A DNA stretch of 64,000 bases from positions 36,726,501 to 36,790,500 of the forward strand of contig JAMPIT010000230.1 of NCBI GenBank assembly GCA_026261815.1, given 5' to 3'. The translations under genes were made by a program, and so were the position numbers. This stretch comes from Monarcha castaneiventris obscurior (lineage: Eukaryota > Chordata > Aves > Passeriformes > Monarchidae). Position 1 is the stretch's first letter; every line of letters starts with the position of its first letter. Under the pieces are notes generated by a model, which was not told the DNA's origin, ran no database searches, and saw only the letters and a program-made list of their open reading frames with translations. Positions 30,787 to 64,000 of the stretch are shown here, one piece after another.

Positions 30787-30904
30787 GTTATTTTTTTCCA
30801 AGTGCACCTGGTGCCATAGCCCTTTCTCATCCTGCTGGGAGCAGCAGCACAGTGGATTACACAGGGTTTAGGAGCGGAGCTGCTGCCATAGAGGTGCCCG
30901 ATGT

Positions 30905-31340
30905 GTCAGGACACTGTGAGCTCCAAGTCCCTGCTGTGCTGACGATCCAGAGCTGGACACAGCACTCCAGAGGTGCCCCCGGGGCTGGGTAGAGGGTCAG
31001 GGTCCCACCCAGACCTGCTGGGAATGCACTTCCCCATGTCCCCAGGACTGGCGGCTGGCAAGGGCAGCTTGTTGTTCCCCAGGGCCTCCAGCTCCTTCCC
31101 CACAGAGCTGCTCCAGCAGCTCCCCACCAGCCTGTGCTACTGCCCGGGGTTGTTCCTCCCCAGCTGCAGGATCTACCTTTGCATTTGTTGAGTTTAAGAA
31201 TGTTCCTCTCTTCCCATCTCTTTGATCTGTCAAGGTCCCTCTGAAGGGCCACACAGCCCTCAGGGGAATCGGCCACTCCTGGGGGTTTGTGTCACCAGAG
31301 AGCTCGCATTGACCCCTCCATCCAGGTCACAGATGGACAA
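30905..31340 (-). mobile_element. Old CR1 fragment of unit 1 (truncated)
   Basis: In minus orientation this follows CR1 ORF2: CCAGAGCTGGACACAGCACTCC, CAGCTCCTTCCCCACAGAGC, TTTGCATTTGTTGAGTT, GCCACTCCTGGGGG and CCCTCCATCCAGGTCAC are all recognisable CR1 segments in the expected order. It ends abruptly at GATGGACAAA and jumps to the gene-upstream block, so part of the CR1 seen in the 4.13-kb units is deleted here. Confidence 0.8.
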
Positions 31341-32068
31341 ATGGAATGGTTTGTTTGAGCCACAGGTTTATCTCCCATTTCTCCTTGCCCTGCAAGTGTC
31401 ACCTTCCCGCTGTCCCTGCCGGGTTGTCTCAGGCCAGGAGCCACCCGTGGTGTCCACAGTGATGTGGGCCAGGCTGCCTCGGAGGACCAAGTGGAATGGG
31501 GGATGTCCAGGCAAGGGCAGCCAGGCTGGCCAGAGGCTCAGGAGAGCTGGCAGCAGTGCCCAGAGAGCCCAGGGAGGAGGCTGGTGCCCCACAGATAAAT
31601 AATGACCGCCCAGTCCCGTGGCACGGCCAGGGCACCCTCCTGAGCCCTCTCTGGGCCCCAGACGGGCAGGGGGCTCACCCCGGCCATGCCCAGCCAGCCG
31701 TGGCTCAGGCTAGGGAGCAGAGCTCTCCGTGTGCCCCTGCCATGCCCCGGGGCTGGGGCTTCTCCTGCTGCTGGAGGTGCTCGGAGCCAGCAGCCAGGGC
31801 AGAGAGCTCCCTGGATGTGGGGGAACTGCAGCTCCCTTGGTGTCGGCAGCATCTTCTCAGGCCCAGAGTGGAGGCTGCTCCCGGCTGGCACTGCCACAGC
31901 GTCCTGGGAGCCCTGGGCTAGACACTGGTGGCACCAGGCCTGCTCCTGGTGTGCCCCTTGCTCCTGGCAGTGCTTCACTGCCGGGGACTGGGCTCCCATT
32001 TTCACTTCCAGGCTTTTCCTGGCCATGAGCACCCTCAGGGCTGAGATGCTCCTGCTGCCCTCGAGGCA
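31341..32068 (+). other. Upstream region of gene 1
   Basis: This GC-rich block is conserved before every gene of the array. It carries open frames in several phases, but their lengths and ends change from unit to unit. Indels here are not restricted to multiples of three; for example a segment near 31860-31890 is lost in units 5 and 6. I therefore treat it as non-coding 5' flank that may hold distal regulatory sequence. Confidence 0.6.
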
Positions 32069-32180
32069 GGCGGGGCGGTGACGGCACAAAGGGGCTGAGC
32101 GCTGGCCTGAGGCCGGGCTCTGATGTCACAGGGTGTCCTGGCCCCGGCACTGTGACATCACCATGCCATCCCTATAAAAG
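32069..32180 (+). promoter_or_regulatory. Promoter of gene 1: GC box, CRE-like inverted repeat, TATA
   Basis: A GC box (GGCGGGGCGG, 32069-32078) is followed by a perfect 11-bp inverted repeat, TGATGTCACAG at 32121-32131 and CTGTGACATCA at 32150-32160, separated by 18 bp. TATAAAAG lies at 32173-32180. Each arm contains a CRE-like octamer (TGATGTCA/TGACATCA), the kind of site bound by CREB/ATF-type bZIP factors. TATA to ATG is 42 bp, so a start about 30 bp past the TATA box would leave a leader of only about 12-17 nt. Factor identity is inference. Confidence 0.85.
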
Positions 32181-32214
32181 CCGGGCCGGCCCCACCGCTG
32201 CCAGTGCAGCCACG

Positions 32215-33462
32215 ATGGGAAGCGCCGCAGCCATGAGCGACGGTGGCCTCCTGCTCGCTGCACTTGCCCTGCTGCTGCTGCTGGCCACCGTGGCTGTCTG
32301 GTGGGCCATTGGCCCCCGGGCACCGCGGGGGCAGAAGGCAGGGACTCGCAAGGGGCCACAGCGCCCCGGGGTCCGGGCCAGGGGCCCACGGAGGAGCCGA
32401 GCAGCTCCTGTGGCTCCCAGGGCCTCCAGGCCTCGGACGAGCCCTCGCGAGCGTCCGCACGGTCCTGCGAGCCCCCCGAGCGTCCCCTGCAGCTGCGGCC
32501 CCTGCGTGAGCGTGGCCAAGGAGCTGCAGGGGCTGATGCTGCTGCTCTGGGCTCCGCGGGGGACACCGGCACCGCTCTACGCCGGGATGTGGCGGGCGCT
32601 GTGGGCACGGCTGGAGCAGCTGGGCAAGCGAGGCCACCTGCCCTGCTGTGCCTTGTCCTGCTGCTCCGGGCGCACCCGGCCCTGCAAGAGGCTGCTCCCG
32701 CCCACAGTGGCCTTTCCTGGGAGAGCCTCCAGCCCGTCAAGGTTATTTCGACGGAGAAGGACCATCCCTCCAAGAAGCTCGGGCATCATTCTAGGAGCCT
32801 CAACTGCCTCTGACGGCCTCCCGCCCTGCAAGATCCTTTCTACACCCAACCGCCGCCCTCCCTCGGAGAAGCTTCCTCCTTCTGAGATGCTCCCTGACGC
32901 TCAGACCCCACATCCCTCTGAGACCCTCCCGACAGCCTGCGTTCCCTCTCAGATCCGCCATCCCCTGAAAATCACCCCGCTTCGAAGACCCTTCGCTCTC
33001 CGCCAGTTCCTGCCTCCCTCCCAGAGCGTTGCTCCTGAAAGCCCCCATCCCGCCCAGACTCTCCAGAAGCCCTGCCGGCCTGCGCACACTGAGGAACCCC
33101 TGGACAGCTCTCCCTGCTCCCTTGGGGATCACCAACATCCCATGGAGATCGACACCACCGGCGCATCCCAGAGCATTGACACGGCCTGGGAAAGCCGGGG
33201 AGCAGAAATGGGAACCCAGCTGGAGCCAGAGAAGCGTTCCCAGGAGCAGGTGGCAAAACCACAAGCGTCCTGCAGCCAGCGGTGTCCACCCCAGGGCTCC
33301 CAGGATGCTGCAGCTGAGCCAGCTGGGAACAGCCCGGGCTTGGTGGCAGAGACGGCCCCCAGGAGACCCTGGAGGTTCACCGGTCTCCAGGAGGCTGCCC
33401 CAAGACGGCCACCGCGTCCCAGCCAGGCGTTTGTGGTGTATGGAGAGCCCTTCTGGGTTTAG
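32215..33462 (+). CDS. Array gene copy 1: single-anchor, Pro-rich, Cys-module protein
   Basis: I do not recognise the family. The 415-residue product starts MGSAAAMSDGG. Residues about 11-31 are a Leu/Ala/Val-rich membrane segment ending VAVWW. A strongly basic stretch follows (about 35-80, many Arg and Pro), which by the positive-inside rule suggests a short outside N-terminus and a cytosolic body. Next come a CSCGPC motif (about 92-97), an amphipathic Leu/Trp-rich helix, a second Cys cluster (CC...CC......C, about 144-157), an RLFRRRR patch, Pro/Ser repeats of the PSEKLP/PSETLP type, and the conserved C-terminus WRFTGLQEAA...FVVYGEPFWV. I chose the ATG at 32215 because the upstream in-frame ATG at 32152 lies before the TATA box; a second ATG lies six codons on. 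Compared with copies 2, 5 and 6 it lacks five residues (RQRSA) after the RSSG segment, an in-frame 15-nt deletion. Confidence 0.75.
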   Translation: MGSAAAMSDGGLLLAALALLLLLATVAVWWAIGPRAPRGQKAGTRKGPQRPGVRARGPRRSRAAPVAPRASRPRTSPRERPHGPASPPSVPCSCGPCVSVAKELQGLMLLLWAPRGTPAPLYAGMWRALWARLEQLGKRGHLPCCALSCCSGRTRPCKRLLPPTVAFPGRASSPSRLFRRRRTIPPRSSGIILGASTASDGLPPCKILSTPNRRPPSEKLPPSEMLPDAQTPHPSETLPTACVPSQIRHPLKITPLRRPFALRQFLPPSQSVAPESPHPAQTLQKPCRPAHTEEPLDSSPCSLGDHQHPMEIDTTGASQSIDTAWESRGAEMGTQLEPEKRSQEQVAKPQASCSQRCPPQGSQDAAAEPAGNSPGLVAETAPRRPWRFTGLQEAAPRRPPRPSQAFVVYGEPFWV

Positions 33463-35026: not shown

Positions 35027-35139
35027 GGGCGGGGCGGTGACGGCACAAAGGGGCTGAGTGTTGGCCTGAGGCCGGGCTCTGATGTCACAGGGTGTCCTGG
35101 CCCCGGCACTGTGACATCACCATGCCATCCCTATAAAAG
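35027..35139 (+). promoter_or_regulatory. Promoter of gene 2
   Basis: A GC box (GGGCGGGGCGG, 35027-35037), the perfect 11-bp CRE-like inverted repeat (35080-35090 with 35109-35119) and TATAAAAG (35132-35139) occur in the same order and spacing as in copy 1. TATA to ATG is 42 bp. Confidence 0.85.
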
Positions 35140-35173: not shown

Positions 35174-36436
35174 ATGGGAAGCGCCGCAGCCATGAGCGAC
35201 GGTGGCCTCCTGCTCGCTGCACTTGCCCTGCTGCTGCTGCTGGCCACCGTGGCTGTCTGGTGGGCCACTGACCCCCGGGCACCGCAGGGGCGGCAGGCAG
35301 GGACTCGCAAGGTGCCACAGCGCCCCGTGGTCCGGGCCAGGGGCCCACGGAGGAGCCGAGCAGCCCCTGTGGCTCCCAGGGCCTCCAGGCCTCGGACGAG
35401 CCCTCGCGAGCGTCCGCACGGTCCTGCGAGCCCCCCGAGCGTCCCCTGCAGCTGCGGCCCCTGTGTGAGCGTGGCCAAGGAGCTGCAGGGGCTGATGCTG
35501 CTGCTCTGGGCTCCGCGGGGGACACCGGCACCGCTCTACGCCGGGATGTGGCGGGCGCTGTGGGCACGGCTGGAGCAGCTGGGCAAGCGTGGCCACCTGC
35601 CCTGCTGTGCCTTGTCCTGCTGCTTGGGGCACACCCGGCCCTGCAAGAGGCTGCTCCTGCCCACAATGGTCTTTCCTGCGAGAGCCTCCAGGCCATCAAG
35701 GTTATTCCGACGGAGAAGGACCATCCCTCCAAGAAGCTCGGGCCGTCAGAGATCCGCCATCATTCCAGGAGCCTCGACTGCCTCTGACGGCCTCCAGGCC
35801 TTCAAGACCCTTCCTGCGTCCAACCGCCGCCCTGCCTTGGAGAACCTCCTTCCCTCTGAGACGCTCCCCGTCACTGAGACCCCGCATCCCTCTGAGACCC
35901 TCCCGGCAGCCTGCGTTCCCTCCGAGATCCGCCAGCCCCTGAAAATCACCCCGCTTCGAAGACCGTTTGCTCTCCGTCCGTTCCTGCCTCCCTCCCAGAG
36001 CGTTGCTCCTGAAAGCCTCCATCCTGCCCAGACTCTCCAGACGCCCTGCCGGCCTGTGCACACTGAGGAGCCCCTGGACAGCTCTCCCTGCTCCCTTGGG
36101 GATCACCAACATCCCATGGAGATCGACACCACTGGCGCATCCCAGAGCATCGACACGGCCTGGGAAAGCCAGGGAGCACAAATGGGAGCCCAGCTGGAGC
36201 CAGAGAAGCGTTCCCAGGAGCAGGTGGCAGAACCACAAGCGTCCTGCAGCCAGCGGTGTCCACCCCAGGCCTCCCAGGATGCTGCAGCTGAGCCAGCTGG
36301 AAACAGCCTGGGCTTGGTGGCAGAGACGGCCCCCAGGAGACCCTGGAGGTTCACCGGTCTCCAGGAGGCTGCCCCAAGACGGCCACCGTGCCCCAGCCAG
36401 GCGTTTGTGGTGTATGGAGAGCCCTTTTGGGTTTAG
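35174..36436 (+). CDS. Array gene copy 2: single-anchor, Pro-rich, Cys-module protein
   Basis: The product has 420 residues and serves as the reference for the family. Approximate layout: membrane anchor 11-31; Arg/Pro-rich 35-90; Cys 92, 94 and 97 (CSCGPC); amphipathic helix with GLMLLLW and MWRALWARLEQLGKRG at 98-141; Cys 144, 145, 149, 150 and 157; basic RLFRRRR at 166-172; Pro/Ser repeats 195-260; acidic/Gln-rich tail with MEIDTTGAS (315-323) and SQEQVAEP; C-terminal FVVYGEPFWV. After the anchor it reads ATDPRAP where most copies have AIGPRAP. It keeps the RQRS segment missing from copy 1. No stop or frameshift is present. The function is unknown; membrane location is inferred from the anchor. 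Confidence 0.77.
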   Translation: MGSAAAMSDGGLLLAALALLLLLATVAVWWATDPRAPQGRQAGTRKVPQRPVVRARGPRRSRAAPVAPRASRPRTSPRERPHGPASPPSVPCSCGPCVSVAKELQGLMLLLWAPRGTPAPLYAGMWRALWARLEQLGKRGHLPCCALSCCLGHTRPCKRLLLPTMVFPARASRPSRLFRRRRTIPPRSSGRQRSAIIPGASTASDGLQAFKTLPASNRRPALENLLPSETLPVTETPHPSETLPAACVPSEIRQPLKITPLRRPFALRPFLPPSQSVAPESLHPAQTLQTPCRPVHTEEPLDSSPCSLGDHQHPMEIDTTGASQSIDTAWESQGAQMGAQLEPEKRSQEQVAEPQASCSQRCPPQASQDAAAEPAGNSLGLVAETAPRRPWRFTGLQEAAPRRPPCPSQAFVVYGEPFWV

Positions 36437-41144: not shown

Positions 41145-41257
41145 GGGCGGGGCGGTGACGGCACAAAGGAGCTGAGCGCAGGCCTGAGGCCGGGCCCTGA
41201 TGTCACAGGGTGTCCTGGCCCCGGCACTGTGACATCACCATGCCATCCCTATAAAAG
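41145..41257 (+). promoter_or_regulatory. Promoter of gene 3
   Basis: GC box at 41145-41155, perfect CRE-like inverted repeat (41198-41208 with 41227-41237) and TATAAAAG at 41250-41257. Order and spacing match the other copies. The first ATG (41292) lies 42 bp past the start of the TATA box, but here it opens only a short frame. Confidence 0.85.
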
Positions 41258-41291
41258 CCGGGCCAGCCCCACCGCTGCCAGTCCAGCCGCG

Positions 41292-41318
41292 ATGGGAAGC
41301 ACCGCAGCGCAGCCATGA
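41292..41318 (+). CDS. Eight-codon upstream ORF created by a 5-bp duplication
   Basis: In this copy CGCAG is duplicated between the two ATGs (CCGCAGCGCAGCCATGAG). The first ATG therefore reads eight codons and stops at TGA, which overlaps the second ATG as ATGA. In the other copies the two ATGs are in frame, 18 nt apart. Confidence 0.8.
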   Translation: MGSTAAQP

Positions 41319-42529
41319 GCGACGGTGGCCTCCTGCTTGCTGCACTTGCCCTGCTGCTGCTGCTGGCCACCGTGGCTGTCTGGTGGGCCATTGGCCCCCG
41401 GGCACCGCAGGGGCGGCAGGCAGGGACTCGCAAGGGGCCACAGCGCCCCGGGGTCCGGGCCAGGGGCCCACAGAGGAGCCGAGCAGTCCCTGTGTGTTCC
41501 AGGGCCTCCAGGCCTCCGGCGAGCCCCCCGAGCGTCCCCTGCAGCTGCGGCCCCTGTGTGAGCGTGGCCAAGGAGCTGCAGGGGCTGATGCTGCTGCTCT
41601 GGGCTCCATGGGGGACACCGGCACTGCTCTACGCCGGGATGTGGCGGGCGCTGTGGGCACGGCTGGAGCAGCTGGGCAAGCGAGGCCACCTGCCCTGCTG
41701 TGCCTCGTCCCGCTGCTCCGGGCGCACCTGGCCCTGCAAGAGGCTGCTCCTCCCCACAATGGCCTTCCCTGGGAAAGCCTCCAGGCCTTCAAGGACATTT
41801 GTTCAGAGACCGACCATCCCTCCGAGACATTTGGGCCGTCAGAGATCCACCATCATTCCAGGAGCCTCGTCTCCCTCTGACGGCCTCCAGCCCTGTAAGA
41901 CCCTGCCTGCGTCCGACCGCCACCTTCCCTCAGAAAAGCTCCCGCCCTCTGAGAAGCTCCCCGTCGCTGAGACCCCGCATCCCTCTGAGACCCTCTCGAC
42001 AGCCTGCAGTCCTTCTGAGACCCGCCAGCCCTTGAAGATCACCCCGCTTCGAAGACCCTTCGCTCTCCGCCAGTTCCTGCCTCCCTCCCAGAGCTTTGCT
42101 CCTGAAAGCCTCCATCCCGCCCAGACTCTCCAGAAGCCCTGCCAGCCTGTGCACACTGAGGAGCCCCTGGACAGCTCTCCCTGCTCCCTTGGGGATCACC
42201 AACATCCCATGGAGATCGACACCACCGGCGCATCCCAGAGCATCGACACGGCCTGGGAAAGCCGGGGAGCAGAAATGGGAGCCCAGCTGGAGCCAGAGAA
42301 GCGTTCCCAGGAGCAGGTGGCAGAACCACAAGAGTCCTGCAGCCAGCGGTGTCCACCCCAGGCCTCCCAGGATGCTGCAGCTGAGCCAGCTGGGAACAGC
42401 CCGGGCTTGGTGGCAGAGACGGCCCCCAGGAGACCCTGGAGGTTCACCGGTCTCCAGGAGGCTGCCCCAAGACGGCCACCGCGTCCCAGCCAGGCGTTTG
42501 TGGTGTATGGAGAGCCCTTCTGGGTTTAG
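41315..42529 (+). CDS. Array gene copy 3: protein starting at the second ATG
   Basis: The 404-residue product starts MSDGGLLLAALALLLLLATVAVWW, i.e. directly at the membrane anchor. The upstream ATG is out of frame because of a 5-bp duplication, so the protein can be made only from this second ATG, which is reachable by leaky scanning or by reinitiation after the short upstream frame. It has an in-frame loss of ten residues (RTSPRERPHG in other copies) before CSCGPC. The Cys module (CCASSRCSG...C), basic patch, Pro/Ser repeats and conserved C-terminus FVVYGEPFWV are present. Apart from the start, the frame is intact. This copy suggests that MSDGG may be the functional start in the whole family, or that this copy is translated less. 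Confidence 0.7.
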   Translation: MSDGGLLLAALALLLLLATVAVWWAIGPRAPQGRQAGTRKGPQRPGVRARGPQRSRAVPVCSRASRPPASPPSVPCSCGPCVSVAKELQGLMLLLWAPWGTPALLYAGMWRALWARLEQLGKRGHLPCCASSRCSGRTWPCKRLLLPTMAFPGKASRPSRTFVQRPTIPPRHLGRQRSTIIPGASSPSDGLQPCKTLPASDRHLPSEKLPPSEKLPVAETPHPSETLSTACSPSETRQPLKITPLRRPFALRQFLPPSQSFAPESLHPAQTLQKPCQPVHTEEPLDSSPCSLGDHQHPMEIDTTGASQSIDTAWESRGAEMGAQLEPEKRSQEQVAEPQESCSQRCPPQASQDAAAEPAGNSPGLVAETAPRRPWRFTGLQEAAPRRPPRPSQAFVVYGEPFWV

Positions 42530-42864: not shown

Positions 42865-44140
42865 ACACTGTGAGCTCCAAGTCCCTGCTGTCGTGACGAT
42901 CCAGACCTGGACACAGCACTCCAGAGGTGCCCCCGGGGCTCGTCAGGGTCTCTCCCTGACCTGCAGGGAATGCACTTCCCTATGCCCCCAGGATCCCATT
43001 GGCCTCCTTGGCCCCAGGACAAGTGGCTTGCAAGGGCAGCTCGTTGTCCCCCAGGGCCTCCAGCTCCTTCCCCACAGAGCTGCTCCAGCAGCTCCCCACC
43101 AGCCACCAGCCTGTGCTGCTGCCCGGGTTTGTTCCTCCCCAGCTGCAGGATCTACCTTGGCATTTGTTGAGTTTCAGAATGTTCCTCTCTGCCCATCTCT
43201 TTGATCTGTCAAAGGCCACACAGCCCTCGAGGGGATTGGCCACTCCTGGGGGCTTTTTGTCACCAGAGAGCTCACATTGACCCCTCCATCCCGGTCACGG
43301 ATGGAGAAATTATTGAACAGCCAGTGCTGACCCTTGGGGGAACACGGCTCGGGAGAGGCCTCTGGCATGTGCCCCTCAGCCACTGCCCAGCCCGTCCCAC
43401 CGTCCCCTCAGCCAGCCCACACTGCCCAGCTCTGCCCATGAGGATTCCATCAGAGCTGTGGAGGGCAGTGAGCCTTTGGCTCAGGAATCCTCTGCACTCC
43501 CTTGCAGGAGAGAAGCCTGAGGGCAAAAGGACTAAGAGATAAGAAACTTCTCTCTAGGTTAGGGTGAGAAGACTGAACCCAGCATGCCTTGTTTCTATAT
43601 GGTAATACCTTGTATCCAGTTGGTAAATTGGGTTCTACCCCACCACCTGCTTTTCCCATAAAAATGGCCCTGGATCTGCCCTGAATTAAGGAGCCGATGT
43701 CCCTGGCCTCCCCTTCACAGGCACTTCTGGACAATAAAGCTGCCTCTGTGGAAATGTCACACAAATCTCCTGTCTCTCTGTCCCTGAGTTTGCCCGGGGG
43801 GTCTCGCAAAGAGCTGAATTCACAAGAGCTGAAATCATTTGTAGCCAAGAAATCGCTATCACCTGCTGTGCAGGGAGGCTGCCTCAGCCCCTAGAAGAGC
43901 TGTTCTTTGCTGGACACTCTTGCTAGGAAGGTCCTGGTTTTTGGTGCCTAACCAGCACCCTACCTCCTGCAACACAGAGCAAGTGTCGAAGCCTTGCTGC
44001 AGCCAGGAGAGACAACGTCCAGTGCTGTCCCCTCATCCATCCAGGGGGCTGTTCCTTTGAGAACATCGCGTGCTTCAGACACCATTTGCCTTTAATGAGC
44101 CCACGCTGACTATTCCTGAGGACCCTCTGGGCCACCTCTG
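42865..44140 (-). mobile_element. Old CR1 fragment of unit 4, interrupted by an LTR
   Basis: Minus-oriented CR1 ORF2 segments occur in order: CTGGACACAGCACTCC, GGATCCCATTGGCCTCCTTGG, CTCCAGCTCCTTCCCCACAG, TTGTTGAGTTTCAGAATG, CCCTCCATCCCGGTCACGG. After the LTR at 43457-43974 they continue with CGAAGCCTTGCTGCAG, CAACGTCCAGTGCTGTCC, CTCATCCATCCAG and CCCACGCTGACTATTCCTGA. The layout matches the younger CR1 at 38-40 kb. The ends are approximate because the copy is diverged. Confidence 0.82.
43457..43974 (+). mobile_element. Solo LTR with 6-bp TSD CAGAGC (unit 4)
   Basis: The 518-bp element starts TGTGGAGGGC and ends CTGCAACA (TG...CA). It is flanked by CAGAGC at 43451-43456 and 43975-43980. CCCATAAAAATGG (TATA-like) and AATAAA at 43733-43738 give a + orientation. 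The paralogous position at 51731-51736 has a single CAGAGC with no element, which fixes both boundaries. It is inserted in the old CR1. Its AATAAA is the first canonical poly-A signal I noticed downstream of gene 3, about 1.2 kb after the stop. Confidence 0.92.
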
Positions 44141-45272
44141 TCCCCCCCGGCCACCTGTTCCACACCCGACACCACCCCTGTGGCCTCTTCCCCAGCCCCT
44201 GCCAGCTCACCTGGCCACAGCGAGGACCACGTCCCCACTCTGGCTCCCCTGCACCAGCCCCCTCCCCAGCAGTGCCTGATGTTGCTGCTTTGGGGGGGCT
44301 GCAGCTGCTCCCTCACACACCGGGGTTTGCCTCCCTCTGCTGTGCCGCGTCCCTGCTGTGCCCTGTCCCTGCTGTGACCCGTCCCTGCTGTGCCCCGTTC
44401 CTGCTGTGCCCTGTCCCTGTGGCTGCCACTGCCCCAGGCCAAGCCCTCTGCCCACATTTTGGAAAGGCCGGTCCCCTGTGGCCTGTGAACATCGACATTT
44501 AGGGGAGGCCAAGAGGAGCAGGAGGCATAGGATAAGGAGGGACACGAAATGGTTTTTTTGAGTCAAGAGTTTCTCTCCTATTTCTCCTTTTCCCTGCAAG
44601 TGTCACCTTCACTCTGTCCCTGCCGGGGTGTCTCAGGCCAGGAGCCACCCGTGGTGTCCTCAGTGATCTGGGCCAGCACTGCCTCGGAGGCACCAGTGGA
44701 ATAGGGGATGTCCAGGCAAGGGCAGCCAGGCTGGCCAGAGGCTCCAGAGGGCTGGCAGCAGTGTCCAGAGAGCCCGGGGAGGAGGCTGATGTCCCACAGA
44801 TAAACAACGACCGCCCAGTCCCGTGGCACAGCCAGGGCACCCTCCTGAGCCCTCTCTGGGCCCCAGATGGGCAGGGGGCTCACCCCGGCCATGCCCAGCC
44901 AGCCGTGGCTCAGGCTGAGGAGCAGAGCTCCCCGTGTGCCCCTGCCATGCCCCGGGGCTGGGCCTTCTCCTGCTGCTGGAGGCGCTCGGAGCCGGCAGCC
45001 AGGGCAGAGAACTCCCTGGACATGGGGGAACTGCAGCTCCCTTGGTGTCTCCAGCATCTTCTCAGGCCCAAATCAGAGGCTGTTTCCAGCTGGCGCTGCC
45101 ACAGCGTCCTGGGAGCCCTGGGCTGGACACTGGTGGCACCAGGCCTGTTCCTGGTGTGCCCCTTGCTCCTGGCAGTGCTTCACTGCTGGGGGCCGGGCTC
45201 CCATTTTCACTTCCAGGCTTTTCCTGGCCATGAGCACCCTCAGGGCTGAGCCAGTCTTGCTGCCCCTGAGGC
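44141..45272 (+). other. Upstream region of gene 4
   Basis: The common GC-rich block, including the longest version of the 15-bp minisatellite. Open frames (for example 44761-45249) vary between units and are not called as genes. Confidence 0.55.
44337..44420. repeat. 15-bp minisatellite, about 5-6 units
   Basis: Tandem units close to CTGTGCCCTGTCCCTG with single-base variants (GCCGCG, GCCCTG, GACCCG, GCCCCG). This is the largest allele among the array units. Confidence 0.85.
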
Positions 45273-45385
45273 GGGCGGGGCGGTGACAGCACAAAGGGGC
45301 TGAGCGCTGGCATGAGGCCGGGCTCTGATGTCACAGGGTGTCCTGGCCCCGGCACTGTGACATCACCATGCCATCCCTATAAAAG
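45273..45385 (+). promoter_or_regulatory. Promoter of gene 4
   Basis: GC box at 45273-45283, perfect CRE-like inverted repeat (45326-45336 with 45355-45365) and TATAAAAG at 45378-45385, 42 bp before the ATG. Confidence 0.85.
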
Positions 45386-45419
45386 CCGGGCCAGCCCCAC
45401 CGCTGCCAGTGCAGCCGCG

Positions 45420-46676
45420 ATGGGAAGCGCCGCAGCCATGAGCGACGGTGGCCTCCTGCTCGCTGCACTTGCCCTGCTGCTGGCCACCGTGGCTGTCTGG
45501 TGGGCCATTGGCCCCCGGGCACCGCGGGGGCGGCAGGCAGGGACTTGCAAGGTGCCACAGCGCCCCGTGGTCCGGGCCAGGGGCCCACGGAGGAGCCGAG
45601 CAGCCCCCGTGTCTCCCAGGGCATCCAGGCCTCGGACGAGCCCTCGCGAGCGTCCGCACGGTCCTGCGAGCCCCCCGAGCGTCCCCTGCAGCTGCGGCCC
45701 CTGCGTGAGCGTGGCCATGGAGCTGCAGGGGCTGATGCTGCTGCTCTGGGCTCCGCGGGGGACACCGGCACCGCTCTACGCCAGGATGTGGCGGGCGCTG
45801 TGGGCACGGCTGGAGCAGCTGGGCAAGCGAGGCCACCTGCCCTTCTGTGCCTCGTCCCGCTGCTCCGGGCGCAACCGGCCCTGCAAGAGGCTGCTCCCGC
45901 CCACAATGGCCTTCCCTGGGAAAGCCTCCAGGCCTTCAAGGACATTTGTTCAGAGACCGACCATCCCTCCAAGAAGCTTGGGCCGTCAGAGATCCACCAT
46001 CATTCCAGGAGCCTTGTCTCCCTCTGACGGCCTCCAGCCCTGTAAGACCCTGCCTGCGTCCGACCGCCGCCTTCCCTCGGAGAAGCTCCCTCCCTCTGAG
46101 AAGCTCCCCGTCGCTGAGGCCCCGCATCCCTCTGAGACCCTCCCGACAGCCTGCGGTCCTTCTGAGACCCGCCAGCCCTTGAAGATCCTCCCGCTTCGAA
46201 GACCCTTCGCTCTCCGCCAGTTCCTGCTTCCCTCCCAGAGCTTTGCTCCTGAAAGCCCCCATCCCGCCCAGACTCTCCAGAAGCCCTGCCAGCCTGCTCA
46301 CACTGAGGAACCCCTGGACAGCTCTCCCTGCTCCCTTGGGGATCACCAACATCCCATGGAGATCGACACCCCCGGCGCATCCCAGAGCATCGACACGGCC
46401 TGGGAAAGCCAGGGAGCAGAAATGGGAGCCCAGCTGGAGCCAGAGAAGCGTTCCCAGGAGCAGGTGGCAGAACCACAAGCGTCCTGCAGCCAGCGGTGTC
46501 CACCCCAGGGCTCCCAGGATGCTGCAGCTGAGCCAGCTGGGAACAGCCCGGGCTTGGTGGCAGAGACGGCCCCCAGGAGACCCTGGAGGTTCACCGGTCT
46601 CCAGGAGGCTGCCCCAAGACGGCCACCGCGCCCCAGCCAGGCGTTTGTGGTGTATGGAGAGCCCTTCTGGGTTTAG
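45420..46676 (+). CDS. Array gene copy 4: single-anchor, Pro-rich, Cys-module protein
   Basis: The product has 418 residues from MGSAAAMSDGG. The membrane segment is two Leu shorter than in the other copies (a 6-nt in-frame loss in the CTG run), leaving about 19 hydrophobic residues. The Cys module has one change: LPFCASSRC replaces LPCCASSRC, so one cysteine of the second cluster is lost. The helix reads AMELQG instead of AKELQG. The basic patch, Pro/Ser repeats (LPPSEKLPPSEKLPVAEAPHPSETLP) and C-terminus FVVYGEPFWV are intact. The open frame continues upstream of the ATG through the TATA box and inverted repeat, but that part is taken as untranscribed. Confidence 0.75.
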   Translation: MGSAAAMSDGGLLLAALALLLATVAVWWAIGPRAPRGRQAGTCKVPQRPVVRARGPRRSRAAPVSPRASRPRTSPRERPHGPASPPSVPCSCGPCVSVAMELQGLMLLLWAPRGTPAPLYARMWRALWARLEQLGKRGHLPFCASSRCSGRNRPCKRLLPPTMAFPGKASRPSRTFVQRPTIPPRSLGRQRSTIIPGALSPSDGLQPCKTLPASDRRLPSEKLPPSEKLPVAEAPHPSETLPTACGPSETRQPLKILPLRRPFALRQFLLPSQSFAPESPHPAQTLQKPCQPAHTEEPLDSSPCSLGDHQHPMEIDTPGASQSIDTAWESQGAEMGAQLEPEKRSQEQVAEPQASCSQRCPPQGSQDAAAEPAGNSPGLVAETAPRRPWRFTGLQEAAPRRPPRPSQAFVVYGEPFWV

Positions 46677-47004
46677 TGTTAAATAGATTAGGATTCCCCC
46701 AAAGAGCTGTCTGAGTGTTCTTGCTGCTCTGCATTTGACTGCGAGAGGGCCCCTTTCTTCCCAGGGACTGCCTCAGTGCTGGCTTTGGATTCAGGCTGGG
46801 AATGCTGTGGAATGCTGAACTACCCGATTGGATTTAAAGTCCTATTTCTCCTCAGGGGCTGAGCAGCTTTCAGTTGCACCCCTCACGGGTATTTTTTCCA
46901 AGTGCACCTGGTGCCACAGCCCTTTCTCATCCTGCTGGGAGCAGTAGCACAGTGGATTACACGGGGTTTAGGAGCTCAGCTGCTGCCATGGAGGTGCCCG
47001 ATGT
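46677..47004 (+). other. 3' flank of gene 4
   Basis: The common 3' flank without a canonical poly-A signal. Nearly identical to the flank of gene 3. Confidence 0.65.
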
Positions 47005-48280
47005 GTCAGGACACTGTGAGCTCCAAGTCCCTGCTGTCGTGACGATCCAGAGCTGGACACAGCACTCCAGAGGTGCCCCCGGGGCTCATCAGGGTCTCTC
47101 CCTGACCTGCAGGGAATGTACTTCCCTATGCCCCCAGGATCCCATTGGCCTCCTTGGCCCCAGGACAAGTGGCTTGCAAGGGCAGCTCGTTGTCCCCCAG
47201 GGCCTCCAGCTCCTTCCCCACAGAGCTGCTCCAGCAGCTCCCCACCAGCCTGTGCTGCTGCCCGGGTTTGTTCCTCCCCAGCTGCAGGATCTATCTTGGC
47301 ATTTGTTGAGTTTCAGAATGTTCCTCTCTGCCCATCTCTTTGATCTGTCAAAGGCCACACAGCCCTCGAGGGGATTGGCCACTCCTGGGGGCTTTTTTTC
47401 ACCAGAGAGCTCACATTGACCCCTCCATCCCGGTCACGGATGGAGAAATTATTGAACAGCCAATGCTGACCCTTGGGGGAACATGGCTCGGGAGAGGCCT
47501 CTGGCATGTGCCCCTCAGCCACTGCCCAGCCCGTCCCACCGTCCCCTCAGCCAGCCCACACTGCCCAGCTCTGCCCATGAGGATTCCATCAGAGCTGTGG
47601 AGGGCAGTGAGCCTTTGGCTCAGGAATCCTCTGCACTCCCTTGCAGGAGAGAAGCCTGAGGGCAAAAGGACTAAGAGATAAGAAACTTCTCTCTAGGTTA
47701 GGGTGAGAAGACTGAACCCAGCATGCCTTGTTTCTATATGGTAATACCTTGTATCCAGTTGGTAAATTGGGTTCTACCCCACCACCTGCTTTTCCCATAA
47801 AAATGGCCCTGGATCTGCCCTGAATTAAGGAGCCGATGTCCCTGGCCTCCCCTTCACAGGCACTTCTGGACAATAAAGCTGCCTCTGTGGAAATGTCACA
47901 CAAAGCTCCTGTCTCTCTGTCCCTGAGTTTGCCCGGGGGGTCTCGCAAAGAGCTGAATTCACAAGAGCTGAAATCATTTGTAGCCAAGAAATCGCTATCA
48001 CCTGCTGTGCAGGGAGGCTGCCTCAGCCCCTAGAAGAGCTGTTCTTTGCTGGACACTCTTGCTAGGAAGGTCCTGGTTTTTGGTGCCTAACCAGCACCCT
48101 ACCTCCTGCAACACAGAGCAAGTGTCGAAGCCTTGCTGCAGCCAGGAGAGACAACGTCCAGTGCTGTCCCCTCATCCATCCAGGGGGCTGTTCCTTTGAG
48201 AACATCGCGTGCTTCAGACACCACTTGCCTTTAATGAGCCCACGCTGACTATTCCTGAGGACCCTCTGGGCCACCTCTGT
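47005..48280 (-). mobile_element. Old CR1 fragment of unit 5, interrupted by an LTR
   Basis: The same CR1 segment and LTR interruption as in unit 4, with only scattered differences over more than 1.2 kb. Confidence 0.82.
47596..48113 (+). mobile_element. Solo LTR with 6-bp TSD CAGAGC (unit 5)
   Basis: 518 bp, TGTGGAGGGC...CTGCAACA, flanked by CAGAGC at 47590-47595 and 48114-48119. By eye it differs from the copy at 43457 by a single base (CAAAGCTCC versus CAAATCTCC), so the two units were copied from each other or homogenised very recently. Confidence 0.92.
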
Positions 48281-49440: not shown

Positions 49441-49500
49441 TGATGTCACAGGGTGTCCTGGCCCCGGCACTGTGACATCACCATGCCATCCCTATAAAAG
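49441..49500 (+). promoter_or_regulatory. Promoter of gene 5 (no GC box)
   Basis: Perfect CRE-like inverted repeat (49441-49451 with 49470-49480) and TATAAAAG at 49493-49500. The GC box present in copies 1-4 and 7 is mutated here. TATA to ATG is 42 bp. Confidence 0.83.
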
Positions 49501-49534: not shown

Positions 49535-50797
49535 ATGGGAAGCGCCGCAGCCATGAGCGACGGTGGCCTCCTGCTCGCTGCACTTGCCCTGCTGCTGCTG
49601 CTGGCCACCGTGGCTGTCTGGTGGGCCATTGGCCCCCGGGCACCGCGGGGGCGGCAGGCAGGGACTCGCAAGGGGCCACAGCGCCCCGTGGTCCGGGCCA
49701 GGGGCCCACGGAGGAGCCGAGCAGCCCCTGTGTCTCCCAGGGCCTCCAGGCCGCGGGCGAGCCCTCGCGAGCATCCGCACGGTCCTGCGAGCCCCCTGAG
49801 CGTCCCCTGCAGCTGCGGCCCCTGTGTGAGCGTGGCCAAGGAGCTGCAGGGGCTGATGCTGCTGCTCTGGGCTCCGCGGGGGACACCGGCACCGCTCTAC
49901 GCCGGGATGTGGCGGGCGCTGTGGGCACGGCTGGAGCAGCTGGGCAAGCGAGGCCACCTGCCCTGCTGTGCCTCGTCCCGCTGCTCCGGGCGCGCCCGGC
50001 CCTGCAAGAGGCTGCTCCCGCCCAAAGTGGCCTTCCCTGGGAAAGCCTCCAGGCCGTCAAGGTTATTCCGACGGAGAAGGACCATCCCTCCGAGAAGCTC
50101 GGGCCATCAGAGATCCACCATCATTCTAGGAGCCTCGAATGCCTCTGACGGCCTCCAGCCCTGCAAGGCCCTTCCTGCGTCCGACCACCGCCCTCCCTCG
50201 GAGAAGCTCCCTCCCTTGGAGAAGCTCCCCATTGCTCAGACCCCGCATCCCTCTGAGACCCTCCCGACAGCCTGCGTTCACTCCGAGATCTGCCAGCCCT
50301 TGAAGATCACCCCGCTTCGAAGACCCTTCGCTCTCCGCCCGTTCCTGCCGCCCTCCCAGAGCATTGCTCCTGGAAGCCTCCATCCTGCCCAGACTCTCCA
50401 GAAGCCCTGCCGGCCTGCGCACACTGAGGAGCCCCTGGACAGCTCTCCCTGCTCCCTTGGGGATCACCAACATCCCATGGAGATCGACACCACTGGCGCA
50501 TCCCAGAGCATCGACGCAGCCTGGGAAAGCCAGGGAGCACAAATGGGAGCCCAGCTGGAGCCAGAGAAGCGTTCCCAGGAGCAGGTGGCAGAACCACAAG
50601 CGTCCTGCAGCCAGCGGTGTCCACCCCAGGGCTCCCAGGATGCTGCATCTGAGCCAGCTGGGAACAGCCTGGGCTTGGTGGCAGAGACGGCCCCCAGGAG
50701 ACTCTGGAGGTTCACTGGTCTCCAGGAGGCTGCCCCAAGACGGCCACCGTGCCCCAGCCAGGCGTTTGTGGTGTATGGAGAGCCCTTCTGGGTTTAG
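49535..50797 (+). CDS. Array gene copy 5: single-anchor, Pro-rich, Cys-module protein
   Basis: 420 residues, same length and layout as copy 2. Anchor GLLLAALALLLLLATVAVWW, CSCGPC, LPCCASSRCSGRARPCKR, basic RLFRRRRTIPP, Pro/Ser repeats, and C-terminus with RRLWRFTGLQEAA and FVVYGEPFWV. Against copy 1, substitutions in the last 110 codons are mostly amino-acid-changing and often CpG transitions (R to Q, P to L, R to C). The reading frame runs open for 200 codons upstream of this ATG, but that stretch crosses the TATA box and inverted repeat and is not conserved as a frame in the other units, so I do not include it. Confidence 0.76.
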   Translation: MGSAAAMSDGGLLLAALALLLLLATVAVWWAIGPRAPRGRQAGTRKGPQRPVVRARGPRRSRAAPVSPRASRPRASPREHPHGPASPLSVPCSCGPCVSVAKELQGLMLLLWAPRGTPAPLYAGMWRALWARLEQLGKRGHLPCCASSRCSGRARPCKRLLPPKVAFPGKASRPSRLFRRRRTIPPRSSGHQRSTIILGASNASDGLQPCKALPASDHRPPSEKLPPLEKLPIAQTPHPSETLPTACVHSEICQPLKITPLRRPFALRPFLPPSQSIAPGSLHPAQTLQKPCRPAHTEEPLDSSPCSLGDHQHPMEIDTTGASQSIDAAWESQGAQMGAQLEPEKRSQEQVAEPQASCSQRCPPQGSQDAASEPAGNSLGLVAETAPRRLWRFTGLQEAAPRRPPCPSQAFVVYGEPFWV

Positions 50798-55311: not shown

Positions 55312-55314
55312 ATA

Positions 55315-56117: not shown

Positions 56118-56150
56118 AATATTAGGTTTTTGATCACTTATGACCTCAGT

Positions 56151-57769: not shown

Positions 57770-58052
57770 ATTTTTCTTTCCCGGCAGCGTCTTCTATTCC
57801 CATAAAAATGTTGGGGGGTCAGGACCCATGCGGCTCTCTCCACCGCCTTCCGCAGCTCTCCCCGCTGCACACTCTCTGCTGCTCCACCGGGAATTCACAG
57901 CTTTTTCTGCTGTTCTCCGCAGCCCTATGGGCTGCCGGCTGCAACCCCCGCTGCCCTGAGGCTATCCCTGCCGCTCTCCAAAGCCTTACCAGCTGCAGGC
58001 AGCAATTCCCGCTGCCCTCTGCCTCTCCGCAATATCCGCGGCAGCTTGTTGT

Positions 58053-58070
58053 ATCACGTCGGGGTCACCA
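58053..58070 (-). promoter_or_regulatory. ERV primer binding site, tRNA-Trp type
   Basis: On the minus strand the 18 bases TGGTGACCCCGACGTGAT lie 3 bp after the 5' LTR. This equals the tRNA-Trp primer binding site of avian leukosis/sarcoma viruses as I know it. Confidence 0.9.
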
Positions 58071-58073
58071 GGC

Positions 58074-58419
58074 GTCGCTTTGATGTCGGAGGCAGAAATG
58101 CGACGCGACACACATTGGATCATGCACAGTAGCCAACATTATTGAGTTCTTCCTCACTTATATAGGGTTGAAGGTCCTCACGGTTGATTCCTATTGGCTG
58201 AACCAGTTGCCAGCCAGCTAACCAGCCAATTGCAGCTTGCGACCCCAACGGCCCGGACCTGCCCTCCAATGGTCCACACTGGTCATGTTACATAACCTAT
58301 TGCTCAAGGCACTTACATAATTCCAGTTACAACTTAATTATTTCAGTTATAAAACGGGGAGTTATAAAATGGGATTAATTCTTATTGTGAGGCGTTCAGG
58401 CCAGCTGTTTCCCATCACA
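58074..58419 (-). repeat. ERV 5' LTR
   Basis: 346 bp, same length as the other LTR, on the minus strand TGTGATGGGAAACAG...CAAAGCGAC. It contains CCAAT (AGCCAATAGG) and TATATAAGTGAGG boxes. Transcription from it would run away from gene 6 and antisense to the array. Confidence 0.9.
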
Positions 58420-58925
58420 ATAAACAATGACTGCCCAGTCCCGTGGCACAGCTAGGGGATCCTCCTGAGCCCTCTCTGGGCCCCAGACGGGAAGGGGGCT
58501 CACCCCAGCCATGCCCAGGCCGCCGTAGCTCAGGCTGGGGAGCAGAGCTCGACATGTATCCCCTGCCATGACCCGGGGCTGGGGCTTCTCCTGCTGCTGG
58601 AGGTGCTCGGAGCCGGCAGCCAGGGCAAAGAGCTCCCTGGATGTGGGGGAACTGCAGCTCCCTTGGTGTCCCCAGCATCTTCTCAGGTCCACACGCTGCC
58701 ACAGCGTCCTGGGCGCCCAGGGCTGGACACTGGTGGCACCAGGACTGTTCCTGGGGTGCCCCTTGCTCCTGGCAATGCTTCATTGGCGGAGGATGGGCTC
58801 CCATTTTCACCTCCAGGCTTTTCCTGGCCATGAGCACCCTCAGGGCTGAGCCGGTGCTGCTGCCCCCGAGGTGGGCAAGGCGGTGACAGCACAAAGGGGC
58901 TGAGCACTGGCCTGAGGCCGGGCTC
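58420..58925 (+). other. Upstream region of gene 6, proximal part
   Basis: Only about 0.5 kb of the usual upstream block remains between the ERV and the promoter core. It has the same variant as unit 5: a short deletion (CCACACGCTGCCACAGCG) and a damaged GC box (GAGGTGGGCAAGGCGG). Confidence 0.65.
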
Positions 58926-58985
58926 TGATGTCACAGGGTGTCCTGGCCCCGGCACTGTGACATCACCATGCCATCCCTATAAAAG
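58926..58985 (+). promoter_or_regulatory. Promoter of gene 6 (no intact GC box)
   Basis: Perfect CRE-like inverted repeat (58926-58936 with 58955-58965) and TATAAAAG at 58978-58985, 42 bp before the ATG. The ERV ends about 510 bp upstream of the inverted repeat. Confidence 0.83.
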
Positions 58986-59019: not shown

Positions 59020-60282
59020 ATGGGAAGCGCCGCAGCCATGAGCGACGGTGGCCTCCTGCTCGCTGCACTTGCCCTGCTGCTGCTGCTGGCCACCGTGGCT
59101 GTCTGGTGGGCCATTGACCACCGGGCACCACGGGGGCGGCAGGCAGGGACTCGCAAGGTGCGACAGCGCCCCGGGGTCCGGGCCAGGGGCCCACGGAGGA
59201 GCCGAGCAGCCCCTGTGGCTCCCAGGGCCTCCAGGCCTCAGACGAGTCCTCGCGAGCGTCCGCACGGTCCTGCGAGCCCACAAAGCGTCCCCTGCAGCTG
59301 CGGCCCCTGTGTGAGCGTGGCCAAGGAGCTGCAGGGGCTGATGCTGCTGCTCTGGGCTCCGCGGGGGACACCGGCACCGCTCTACGCCGGGATGTGGCGG
59401 GCGCTGTGGGCACGGCTGGAGCAGCTGGGCAAGCGAGGCCACCTGCCCTGCTGTGCCTCGTCCCACTGCTCCGGGCGCAACCGGCCCTGCAAGAGGCTGC
59501 TCCCGCCCACAATGGCCTTCCCGTGGAGAGCCTGCAGCGTGTCAAGGTTATTCCGCCGGAGGAAGCCCATCCCTCCAAGAAGCACGAGCCGTCAGAGATC
59601 CACCATCATTTCAGGAGCCTCGAATGCCTCTGACGGCCTCCAGCCCTGCAAGACCCTTCCTGCGTCTGACCACCGCCCTCCCTTCGAGAAGCTCCCTCCC
59701 TCTGAGGAGCTCCCCGTCACTGGGACCCCACATCCCTCTGAGACCCTCCCGACAGCCTGCGTTCCCTCTCAGATCCACCAGCCTTTGAAGATCCGCCCGC
59801 TTCAAAGACCCTTCGCTCTCCGCCCGTTCCTGCCTCCCTCCCAGACCGTTGCTTCTGAAAGCCCCCATCCCGCCCAGACTCTCCAGAAGCCCTGCCAGCC
59901 TGTGCACACTGAGGAGCCCCTGGACAGCTCTCCCTGCTCCCTTGGGGATCACCAACATCCCATGAAGATCGACACCCCCGGCGCATCCCAGAGCATTGAC
60001 ACGGCCTGGGAAAGCCGGGGAGCAGAAATGGGAGCCCAGCTGGAGCCAGAGAAGCGTTCCCAGGAGCAGGTGGCAGAACCACAAGCATCCTGCAGCCAGC
60101 GGTGTCCACCCCAGGGCTCCCAGGATGCTGCAGCTGAGCCAGCTGGGAACAGCCCGGGCTTGGTGGCAGAGACGGCCCCCAGGAGACCCTGGAGGTTCAC
60201 CGGTCTCCAGGAGGCTGCCCCAAGACGGCCACCGTGCCCCAGCCAGGCGTTTGTGGTGTATGGAGAGCCCTTCTGGGTTTAG
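59020..60282 (+). CDS. Array gene copy 6: single-anchor, Pro-rich, Cys-module protein
   Basis: 420 residues, intact. The segment after the anchor reads AIDHRAPRG. Before the first Cys motif it reads ASPQSVPCSCGPC (others ASPPSV). The second Cys cluster is LPCCASSHCSGRNRPCKR. The basic patch is changed to RLFRRRKPIPP, and the MEIDT motif to MKIDT. Pro/Ser repeats and the C-terminus FVVYGEPFWV are conserved. It lies directly downstream of the ERV insertion, yet frame and core promoter are undamaged. Confidence 0.76.
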   Translation: MGSAAAMSDGGLLLAALALLLLLATVAVWWAIDHRAPRGRQAGTRKVRQRPGVRARGPRRSRAAPVAPRASRPQTSPRERPHGPASPQSVPCSCGPCVSVAKELQGLMLLLWAPRGTPAPLYAGMWRALWARLEQLGKRGHLPCCASSHCSGRNRPCKRLLPPTMAFPWRACSVSRLFRRRKPIPPRSTSRQRSTIISGASNASDGLQPCKTLPASDHRPPFEKLPPSEELPVTGTPHPSETLPTACVPSQIHQPLKIRPLQRPFALRPFLPPSQTVASESPHPAQTLQKPCQPVHTEEPLDSSPCSLGDHQHPMKIDTPGASQSIDTAWESRGAEMGAQLEPEKRSQEQVAEPQASCSQRCPPQGSQDAAAEPAGNSPGLVAETAPRRPWRFTGLQEAAPRRPPCPSQAFVVYGEPFWV

Positions 60283-61905: not shown

Positions 61906-63020
61906 CCCCCCCGGCCACCCGTTCCACACCCGACACCACCCCTGTGGCCCCTTCCCCAGCCCCTGCCAGCTCACCTGGCCACAGCAAGTACCACGTCCCC
62001 TCTCTGGCTCCCCTGCACCAGCCCCCTCCCCAGCAGTGCCTGATGTTGCTGATATTGGGGGGCTGCAGCTGCTCCCTCACACACCGGGGGTTGCCTCCCT
62101 CTGCTGTGCCGCGTCCCTGCTGTGCCCCATCCCTGCTGTGCCCCGTTCCTGCTGTGCCCTGTCCCTGTGGCTGCCACTGCCCCAGGCCAAGCCCTCTGCC
62201 CACATTCTGGAAAGGCCGGTCGCCTGTGGCATGTGAACATCAAGATTTGGAGGAGGCCAAGAGGAGCAGGAGGCATAGGATAAGGAGGGACACGAAATGG
62301 TTTTTTTGAGTCAGGAGTTCCTCTCCTATTTCTCCTTTTCCCTGCAAGTGTCACCTTCACTCTGTCCCTGCCGGGGTGTCTCAGGCCAGGAGCCACCCGT
62401 GGTGTCCACAGTGATCTGGGCCAGCGCTGCCTCGGAGGCACCAGTGGAATAGGGGATGTCCAGGCACGGGCAGCCAGGCTGGCCAGAGGCTCCGGAGGGC
62501 TGGCAGCAGTGTCCAGAGAGCCCGGGGAGGAGGCTGGTGCCCCACAGATAAACAATGATCGCCCAGTCCCGTGGCACAGCCAGGGCACCCTCCTGAGCCC
62601 TCTCTGGGCCCCACACGGACAGGGGGCTCACCCCAGCCATGCCCAGCCAGCCGTGGCTCAGGCTGAGGAGCAGAGCTCCCCGTGTGCCCCTGCCATGCCC
62701 CGGGGCTGGGGCTTCTTCTGCTGCTGGAGGTGCTCGGAGCCGGCAGCCAGGGCAGAGAACTCCCTGGACATGGGGGAACTGCAGCTCCCTTGGTGTCGGC
62801 AGCATCTTCTTAGGCCCAAATCAGAGGCTGTTTCCAGCTGGCGCTGCCACAGTGTCCTGGGAGCCCTGGGCTGGACACTGGTGGCACCAGGCCTGTTCCT
62901 GGTATGCCCCTTACTCCTGGCAGTGCTTCACTGCCGGGGACTGGGCTCCCATTTTCACTTCCAGGCTTTTCCTGGCCATGAGCACCCTCAGGGCTGAGCC
63001 GGTCCTGCTGCCTCTGAGGC
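61906..63020 (+). other. Upstream region of gene 7
   Basis: The common GC-rich upstream block with the minisatellite at 62101-62167. In its proximal part it resembles unit 4 (for example CAGAGGCTGTTTCCAGCTGGCGCTG in both). Confidence 0.55.
62101..62167. repeat. 15-bp minisatellite, about 4 units
   Basis: CTGTGCCCYGTCCCTG-like tandem units. Confidence 0.8.
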
Positions 63021-63133
63021 GGGCGGGGCGGTGACGGCACAAAGGGGCTGAGTGCTGGCCTGAGGCTGGGCTCTGATGTCACAGGGTGTCCTGGCCCCGG
63101 CACTGTGACATCATCATGCCATTCCTATAAAAG
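63021..63133 (+). promoter_or_regulatory. Promoter of gene 7
   Basis: GC box at 63021-63031, perfect CRE-like inverted repeat (63074-63084 with 63103-63113) and TATAAAAG at 63126-63133, 42 bp before the ATG. The bases between the inverted repeat and TATA differ slightly (TCATGCCATTCC), but the spacing is kept. Confidence 0.85.
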
Positions 63134-63167
63134 CCGGGCCAGCCCCACTGCTGCCAGTGCAGCCGCG

Positions 63168-64000
63168 ATGGGAAGCGCCGCAGCCATGAGCGACGGTGGC
63201 CTCCTGCTCGCTGCATTTGCCCTGCTGCTGCTGCTGGCCACCGTGGCTGTCTGGTGGGCCACTGGCCCCCGGGCACCGCGGGGGCGGCAGGCAGGGACTC
63301 GCAAGGTGCGACAGCGCCCCGTGGTCCGGGCCAGGGGCCCACGGAGGAGCCGAGCAGCCCCTGTGGCTCCCAGGGCCTCCAGGCCTCGGGTGAGCCCTCG
63401 CGAGCGTCCGCACGGTCCTGCGAGCCCCCCGAGCGTCCCCTGCAGCTGCGGCCCCTGCGTGAGCGTGGCCAAGGAGCTGCAGGGGCTGATGCTGCTGCTC
63501 TGGGCTCCGCGGGGGACACCGGCACCGCTCTACGCCGGGATGTGGCGGGCGCTGTGGGCACGGCTGGAGCAGCTGGGCAAGCGTGGCCACCTACCCTGCT
63601 GTGCCTCATCCCACTGCTCCGGGCGCAACCGGCCCTGCAAGAGGCTGCTCCGGCCCACAGTGGCCATTCCTGGGAGAGCCTCTAGCCCGTCAAGGTTATT
63701 CCGCCAGAGAAAGAGCATCCCACAGAGAAGCTTGGGCTGTCAGAGATGCACCATCATTCCTGGAGCCCCGACTGCCTCTGACGGCCTCCAGCCCTGCAAG
63801 ACCCTTCCCGTGTCCGACTGCCGCCCTCCCTCGGAGAATCTCTTTCCCTCTGAGAAGCTCCCTGACGCTCAGACCCCGCATCCCTCTGAGACCCTCCCGA
63901 CAGCCTGCGTTCCCTCCGATATCTGTCAGCCCTTGAAGATCACCCCGCTTCGAAGACCCTTCGCTCTCCACCCGTTCCTGCCGCCCTCCCAGAGCTTTGC
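63168..64000 (+). CDS. Array gene copy 7, 3' end outside the window
   Basis: The reading frame is open from the ATG to the window edge (277 complete codons), covering the anchor (with LLLAAFALLLLL, one Leu changed to Phe), the Arg/Pro-rich part, CSCGPC, LPCCASSHCSGRNRPCKR, the basic patch (RLFRQRKSIP) and the first half of the Pro/Ser repeats. It has two extra cysteines near the basic patch (LGCQRCTII where others read LGRQRSTII). The conserved C-terminus would lie beyond the edge. No stop or frameshift is seen in the visible part. Confidence 0.74.
   Translation, partial: MGSAAAMSDGGLLLAAFALLLLLATVAVWWATGPRAPRGRQAGTRKVRQRPVVRARGPRRSRAAPVAPRASRPRVSPRERPHGPASPPSVPCSCGPCVSVAKELQGLMLLLWAPRGTPAPLYAGMWRALWARLEQLGKRGHLPCCASSHCSGRNRPCKRLLRPTVAIPGRASSPSRLFRQRKSIPQRSLGCQRCTIIPGAPTASDGLQPCKTLPVSDCRPPSENLFPSEKLPDAQTPHPSETLPTACVPSDICQPLKITPLRRPFALHPFLPPSQSF

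Follow-up and report, generated by a model that had tools for sequence, protein, structure and literature searches.

What kind of gene, if any, is repeated in the right half of a 64,000-nucleotide (nt) stretch of the genome of the bird Monarcha castaneiventris obscurior, and is its product likely to be in use? The stretch (assembly GCA_026261815.1, contig JAMPIT010000230.1, positions 36,726,501 to 36,790,500 of the forward strand; referred to below as the window) contains a tandem array of long open reading frames, which an earlier note had described as copies of one intronless gene for a membrane protein. We regard this, with high confidence, as a genuine array of coding genes whose frames are uninterrupted and whose promoter core is invariant. 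The fuller reading, to which we give an even chance, is that of an active protein-coding amplicon of at least seven copies, whose product would be a small single-pass membrane protein made in male germ cells.

The seven head-to-tail copies were confirmed by their coordinates, and all lie in the same orientation on the + strand. Measured from the ATG that opens the sequence MSDGG, which is the first position of each interval given here, the six complete coding regions are copy 1 at 32233..33462 (409 codons plus stop, with a 15-nt in-frame gap), copy 2 at 35192..36436 (414 codons plus stop), copy 3 at 41315..42529 (404 codons plus stop, with a 30-nt in-frame gap), copy 4 at 45438..46676 (412 codons plus stop, with a 6-nt in-frame gap), copy 5 at 49553..50797 and copy 6 at 59038..60282 (414 codons plus stop each). 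Copy 7 (63186..64000) is visible for 271 codons up to the window end, and its last third lies outside the window. A 620-residue open reading frame at copy 5 is an upstream extension of the gene, of a length seen in copy 5 only. The ATG-to-ATG distances are 2959, 6123, 4123, 4115, 9485 and 4148 nt, on a basic repeat unit of about 4.1 kilobases (kb); the short first interval is without part of the spacer. The full unit of copy 4 (44102..48240, +; blastn of the unit against the window) served as reference, and the copy 3 unit (40001-44101) is 94.2% identical to it over 4165 columns (blastn). Copies 1, 2 and 4-7 share 82-93% identity with copy 3. On the left the array starts at 30780 in a truncated spacer copy (30780..31342, +, matching unit positions 2780-3348 at 85.1% by blastn), and the right end of the window cuts through a copy, which makes seven the lowest possible copy number. 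Outside insertions, GC content in 1-kb windows is 56-70% across the array and 32-50% across the 31 kb on its left side.

The claim of an unbroken main frame held, and selection has preserved that frame beyond what chance would give. Up to the common end, all copies are free of stops and frameshifts (copy 7 over its 271 codons); a fixed stretch of 1227 nt gives two stops in copy 3, since that stretch extends past copy 3's own stop. Relative to the seven-copy consensus, 212 distinct derived states were counted, none of which creates a stop where 6.02 stops were expected, and zero stops were reached in 0 of 2000 simulations in which the same changes were placed at random with CpG sites handled separately. 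Indels within the coding region number three (6, 30 and 15 nt), and each is a multiple of three. The density in the flanks, where nine were counted in 850 nt and eight of the nine are not multiples of three, would predict 13.2 (P=0.0009 for three or fewer). Two of the nine flank indels overlap, and merging them lowers the expectation to 11.7; a 45-nt spacer gap just past the counted flank stretch was excluded. Sense frames +1 and +2 are interrupted by 4-6 and 4-9 stops in each copy. On the antisense side, too, a stretch of 200-216 codons is open in every one of the seven copies (32126-32773 in copy 1, the equivalent place elsewhere). As a gene it was rejected, with one new stop against 3.40 expected (P=0.12) plus one stop in the consensus of the stretch itself, and it is probably a by-product of conserved GC-rich sequence. 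An intron covering the middle third was also considered and rejected: a crude splice-site score placed a strong acceptor-like site at column 807 and donor-like sites at column 68 (7/7 copies) and column 509 (5/7 copies), of which the first pair would delete the conserved cysteine and helix part and the second would remove 298 columns and shift the frame. On this crude screen the gene may be intronless.

Each gene has its own compact promoter, as the earlier note had proposed. In all seven copies the core reads TGATGTCACAG - 18 nt - CTGTGACATCA - 12 nt - TATAAAAG, with words and spacing invariant. It includes two inverted octamers resembling the cAMP response element (CRE), TGATGTCA and its reverse complement TGACATCA, each one base off the perfect CRE and exact in 7/7 promoters; no further exact occurrence of either was found anywhere in the window. 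The cores, all on the + strand and exact matches in fixed geometry, lie at 32121..32180 (copy 1), 35080..35139 (copy 2), 41198..41257 (copy 3), 45326..45385 (copy 4), 49441..49500 (copy 5), 58926..58985 (copy 6, intact despite a provirus nearby upstream) and 63074..63133 (copy 7). The TATA box stands at -60 except in copy 3, where a 5-nt insertion at -12 moves the core 5 nt farther from the ATG and the box to -65. The same insertion throws the upstream ATG (MGSAAA...) out of frame, and the 420-residue protein start proposed for every copy therefore fails in copy 3; only the second ATG, that of MSDGG, is open as a start in 7/7 copies and is the likelier one. With the transcription start assumed from the TATA position, the one-mismatch CRE-like sites lie near the start, as in promoters of the CREM/CREB type. 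The observed/expected CpG ratio, measured in the copy 4 unit alone, is 0.49-0.80 between -200 and +800 and 0.09-0.40 in the remainder of that unit; such retention is expected of sequence that is unmethylated in the germline, and coding constraint could contribute. The 11-nt inverted repeat does not in itself prove function, since a count over the whole window (exact 11 nt, loops up to 40 nt) returned 20 such repeats, 10 of them inside coding regions. Behind the stop, AATAGA, which we take to be a weak variant poly(A) signal, follows closely in 6/6 complete copies, and AATAAA occurs about 1.2 kb downstream of the stop in three of the six.

Change is unevenly distributed along the unit. After exclusion of CpG columns, the seven copies show 4.0 derived states per 100 nt in the 120-nt promoter and 5.4 over residues 1-125; residues 126-271 show 21.9 and the upstream spacer 16.5. 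For the six complete copies the values are 3.4 in the C-terminal part and 15.3 in the upstream spacer. The promoter core and both protein ends are thus 3-5 times slower than the spacers, which may reflect constraint, exchange between copies or both. The middle third matches or somewhat exceeds the spacers in rate. Its excess was significant ahead of CpG correction (32.9 against 22.3, P=0.0003, seven copies; 24.6 against 16.7, P=0.003, five copies), and after correction it was smaller and not significant in four overlapping comparisons (P=0.06, 0.21, 0.15 and 0.23), partly because fewer sites remain. The three codon positions of the middle vary alike (21.7, 20.2 and 23.9 derived states per 100 nt). 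By part, the ratio of nonsynonymous to synonymous change (dN/dS) is 0.31 in residues 86-140, 0.85 in 141-260 and 0.45 in 291-414, and dS is 0.039 in residues 1-140, 0.164 in 141-260 and 0.045 in 291-414. The nearest pairs shift along the gene (copies 4/7 upstream, 3/4 in the middle, 2/4 behind the stop). A Sawyer-type fragment test on six copies gave 13510 against 10666 (standard deviation 356), a value reached in 0 of 2000 permutations; for the upstream part alone, 45 of 2000 permutations reached the observed value. From the shifting relationships and the fragment test, the copies have probably exchanged sequence and are mosaics.

The predicted protein of the six complete copies has a mass of 43.7-45.0 kilodaltons (kD) and an isoelectric point (pI) of 9.7-10.7. 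The N-terminal anchor named in the earlier note was recovered as a predicted helix at residues 3-25, comparatively confident in the AlphaFold2 model (mean predicted local distance difference test, pLDDT, of 71, 85 and 60 in the first three 10-residue blocks). Two weaker predicted helices (residues 84-95 and 103-122) lie behind a CSCGPC motif, and the rest of the model has short weak elements near the C terminus and is otherwise without structure. Strongly basic residues follow the N-terminal helix. Under the positive-inside rule the basic side of a membrane anchor is cytosolic, so a cytosolic tail is suggested. Toward the C terminus the protein is acidic (pI 4.7-5.3), and its last three residues are -FWV in 6/6 complete copies, an end with a weak resemblance to a PDZ ligand. 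We propose, with moderate confidence, that the protein is a membrane tether that crosses the membrane once and has a disordered tail in the cytosol. Its short N terminus would face the lumen or the outside, and its basic Pro/Ser-rich tail of about 380 residues, with the cysteine cluster, would lie in the cytosol. The CSCGPC-proximal helices and the conserved acidic -FWV C terminus could then serve for docking, with the disordered, loosely constrained stretch between them as a linker, and the protein would act as a membrane tether or scaffold. Expression may take place in male germ cells, probably spermatids, through CREM/CREB-type factors.

No family was recognized for this protein in the collections searched. 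Pfam gave no convincing family for copies 3 and 6 as whole proteins or for eight pieces of copies 2-6 at E values up to 10; three chance matches to other families, all below the cut-off, occurred in two of the pieces. Sensitivity of the Pfam scan is limited by the HMMER filters, and the family-library scans drew on copies 2-6. NCBIfam, searched with copies 3 and 6 plus a 49-residue piece taken from copy 4, gave no match. With copy 3 as query, PHROGs and PDB sequences gave 0 matches, and the viral_contigs and genome_contigs collections gave 2 and 103 pattern matches with 0 confirmed relatives; both are virus and prokaryote collections and poor ground for a vertebrate gene. Literature on bird and amplified gene arrays, SPATA31 and CREM, searched by text and not by sequence, contained no description of the family among the matches listed. 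Relatives were sought in Pfam, NCBIfam, PHROGs, PDB and virus or prokaryote contigs, and the gene is a candidate orphan. A more specific form of the proposal, still tentative, is a lineage-restricted vertebrate orphan family: an array of single-pass membrane protein genes with mosaic copies, fixed ends and promoter and a free middle, driven in haploid male germ cells by a promoter that combines TATA with paired inverted CRE-like sites.

Several results weigh against the amplicon reading. Substitution patterns fail to distinguish this frame from others: pooled dN/dS is 0.80 (bootstrap 0.63-1.07), with lower values in sense frame +2 (0.71) and one antisense frame (0.67); residues 26-85 give 1.28. 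Codon position 2 is more variable than position 3 (0.055, 0.078 and 0.065 for positions 1, 2 and 3), and in a CpG-aware simulation every segment had a replacement count within the range of chance. Considered separately, the middle third gives weak stop evidence (0 stops against 3.34 expected, P=0.015), as does the sense frame from -110 to +545 (0 against 2.24, P=0.097). The case for a maintained frame accordingly draws on stops and indels counted along the entire gene; for single parts such as the middle third it is weaker. The low synonymous change at the ends means that homogenization may explain part of their similarity. At the protein level, mean pLDDT over the seven copies is 39.9, a poor model, and a PDZ-like end of three residues is a frequent chance match. 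At the promoter, CRE-like sites serve many tissues. TATA boxes are not enriched at CREM-regulated promoters (PMC3091680).

Of the other explanations, a plain dosage array survives best and is possible: every copy would have the same function and be amplified for more product, in whatever cell type. The earlier note had favored dosage of one product. The identical promoter cores and the strongly similar protein ends fit it, and the mosaic relationships suggest homogenizing exchange; that much of the claim stands. The remaining copies, however, are 7-18% different from copy 3, and the middle third is free and at least as divergent as the spacers, which does not suit a single product. That expression occurs in one cell type, as the note had it, is a suggestion drawn from the promoter.

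It is unlikely that the gene is a divergent avian relative of SPATA31/FAM205, a mammalian family of spermatid proteins with an N-terminal membrane anchor, a basic stretch, a Cys-containing helical part and a long disordered tail. The anchored layout of the array protein is similar. Copy-number behavior is also similar: SPATA31 is a multicopy male-fertility family whose copies show concerted evolution, with infertility in Spata31 knock-out mice (PMC5338094), and the array shows mosaic copies. In contrast, SPATA31 proteins have predicted masses of 130-157 kD in the A and C types, with exon 4 as the longest coding exon (PMC5338094). The array gene has 404-414 codons in one frame and 43.7-45.0 kD, whereas SPATA31/FAM205 genes of the A and C types have several exons and products above 100 kD. 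Pfam contains SPATA31 models, and the scan of two whole copies and eight pieces described above returned no SPATA31/FAM205 domain match for the array protein.

Diversifying selection, in which the middle third would be a variable recognition surface like those of immune or gamete-recognition families, is improbable. The middle exceeds the spacers before CpG correction, and the correction removes only part of that excess, the middle remaining higher in each comparison. Against this, the excess loses significance once corrected, the three codon positions vary alike, dS is raised along with a dN/dS of 0.85, and the tail is predicted to be cytosolic. Least probable is a GC-rich satellite-like array, recently dead or never coding, whose frame is open by chance: high GC (0.56-0.70) lowers stop frequency, the antisense stretch is open as well, dN/dS lies close to 1, with lower values in two wrong frames, and position 2 outpaces position 3, but the whole-frame stop and indel tests, the slow promoter and N- and C-terminal parts, the stops in the other two sense frames (4-9 per copy) and the lack of significant stop avoidance in the antisense frame speak against it.

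The two long intervals between copies contain insertions. Between copies 2 and 3 lies an element with a minus-strand reverse-transcriptase frame at 38082-39755; an open minus-strand frame of 547 residues at 38079-39722 has a reverse-transcriptase domain match (E 8e-38), which on reading suggests a CR1-like element. A provirus at 52303-58420 occupies the spacer upstream of copy 6 and stops about 620 nt short of the copy 6 ATG; its long terminal repeats (LTRs; 52303-52649 and 58074-58420) are 347 nt long and 89.3% identical, and separate minus-strand frames match Gag_p10, dUTPase, RVT_1, RVT_thumb, RNase_H and integrase domains. Well-aligned spacer parts differ by about 4-11% between copies; the LTR divergence is similar to or above this, so the array is probably not young. 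An LTR-like spacer stretch at 47640-47910, with a TATA-like box followed by AATAAA at 47872, is possibly a solo LTR carried within the unit; AATAAA is present at 43733 and 61495 as well. In a scan for host genes in the left flank, covering 130 of 216 long frames outside the array genes, the matches were to retroelement domains, plus one marginal RM3_Med14 (E 0.0048); RVT_1 was matched in 4 of the 130 frames, two of which were placed. The left flank also contains a 133-nt direct repeat (13591-13723 and 18612-18744, 83% identical), the second copy of which runs to a (TATTC) array of 16.8 units (18738-18821), and a perfect tandem duplication of 33 nt at 19539-19605. Rfam gave 0 matches over the whole window at gathering thresholds.

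GC-rich tandem gene arrays in bird genomes are hard to assemble and annotate. Should this family prove real and be active in male germ cells, the known amplicons would be joined by a protein-coding one whose promoter is defined and whose protein parts can be tested; it would also offer a single array in which selection on the frame and ends could be separated from drift in the linker.

Among known systems, CREM/CREB-bound spermatid promoters resemble those of the array, which have CRE-like and not perfect CRE sites near the start. In spermatids, most CREM sites have an imperfect CRE or half a CRE, or are without one (PMC3091680). The array differs in having two inverted sites 18 nt apart plus a TATA box. 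Avian testis-expressed amplicons offer a closer parallel. Amplified multicopy genes of the chicken show a testis bias on seven of its ten dot chromosomes examined for them, and HINT1W on the W forms a GC-rich tandem unit of 5648 bp in 52 copies with gene conversion suggested (PMC9974502). The array likewise consists of tandem gene-bearing, GC-rich units (here seven, of about 4.1 kb), and its copies are intact and not decayed, with 0 stops and three in-frame indels (copy 7 over 271 codons). HINT1W and OR29G belong to named families, whereas the array gene, with at least seven copies, is without a relative in the libraries searched. The TATA box with paired CRE-like sites, the CpG retention and the precedent of avian testis amplicons together make male germ-cell expression plausible, and we hold expression in spermatids specifically with moderate to low confidence. 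By analogy, the nearest known kind would be the avian testis-expressed amplicon.

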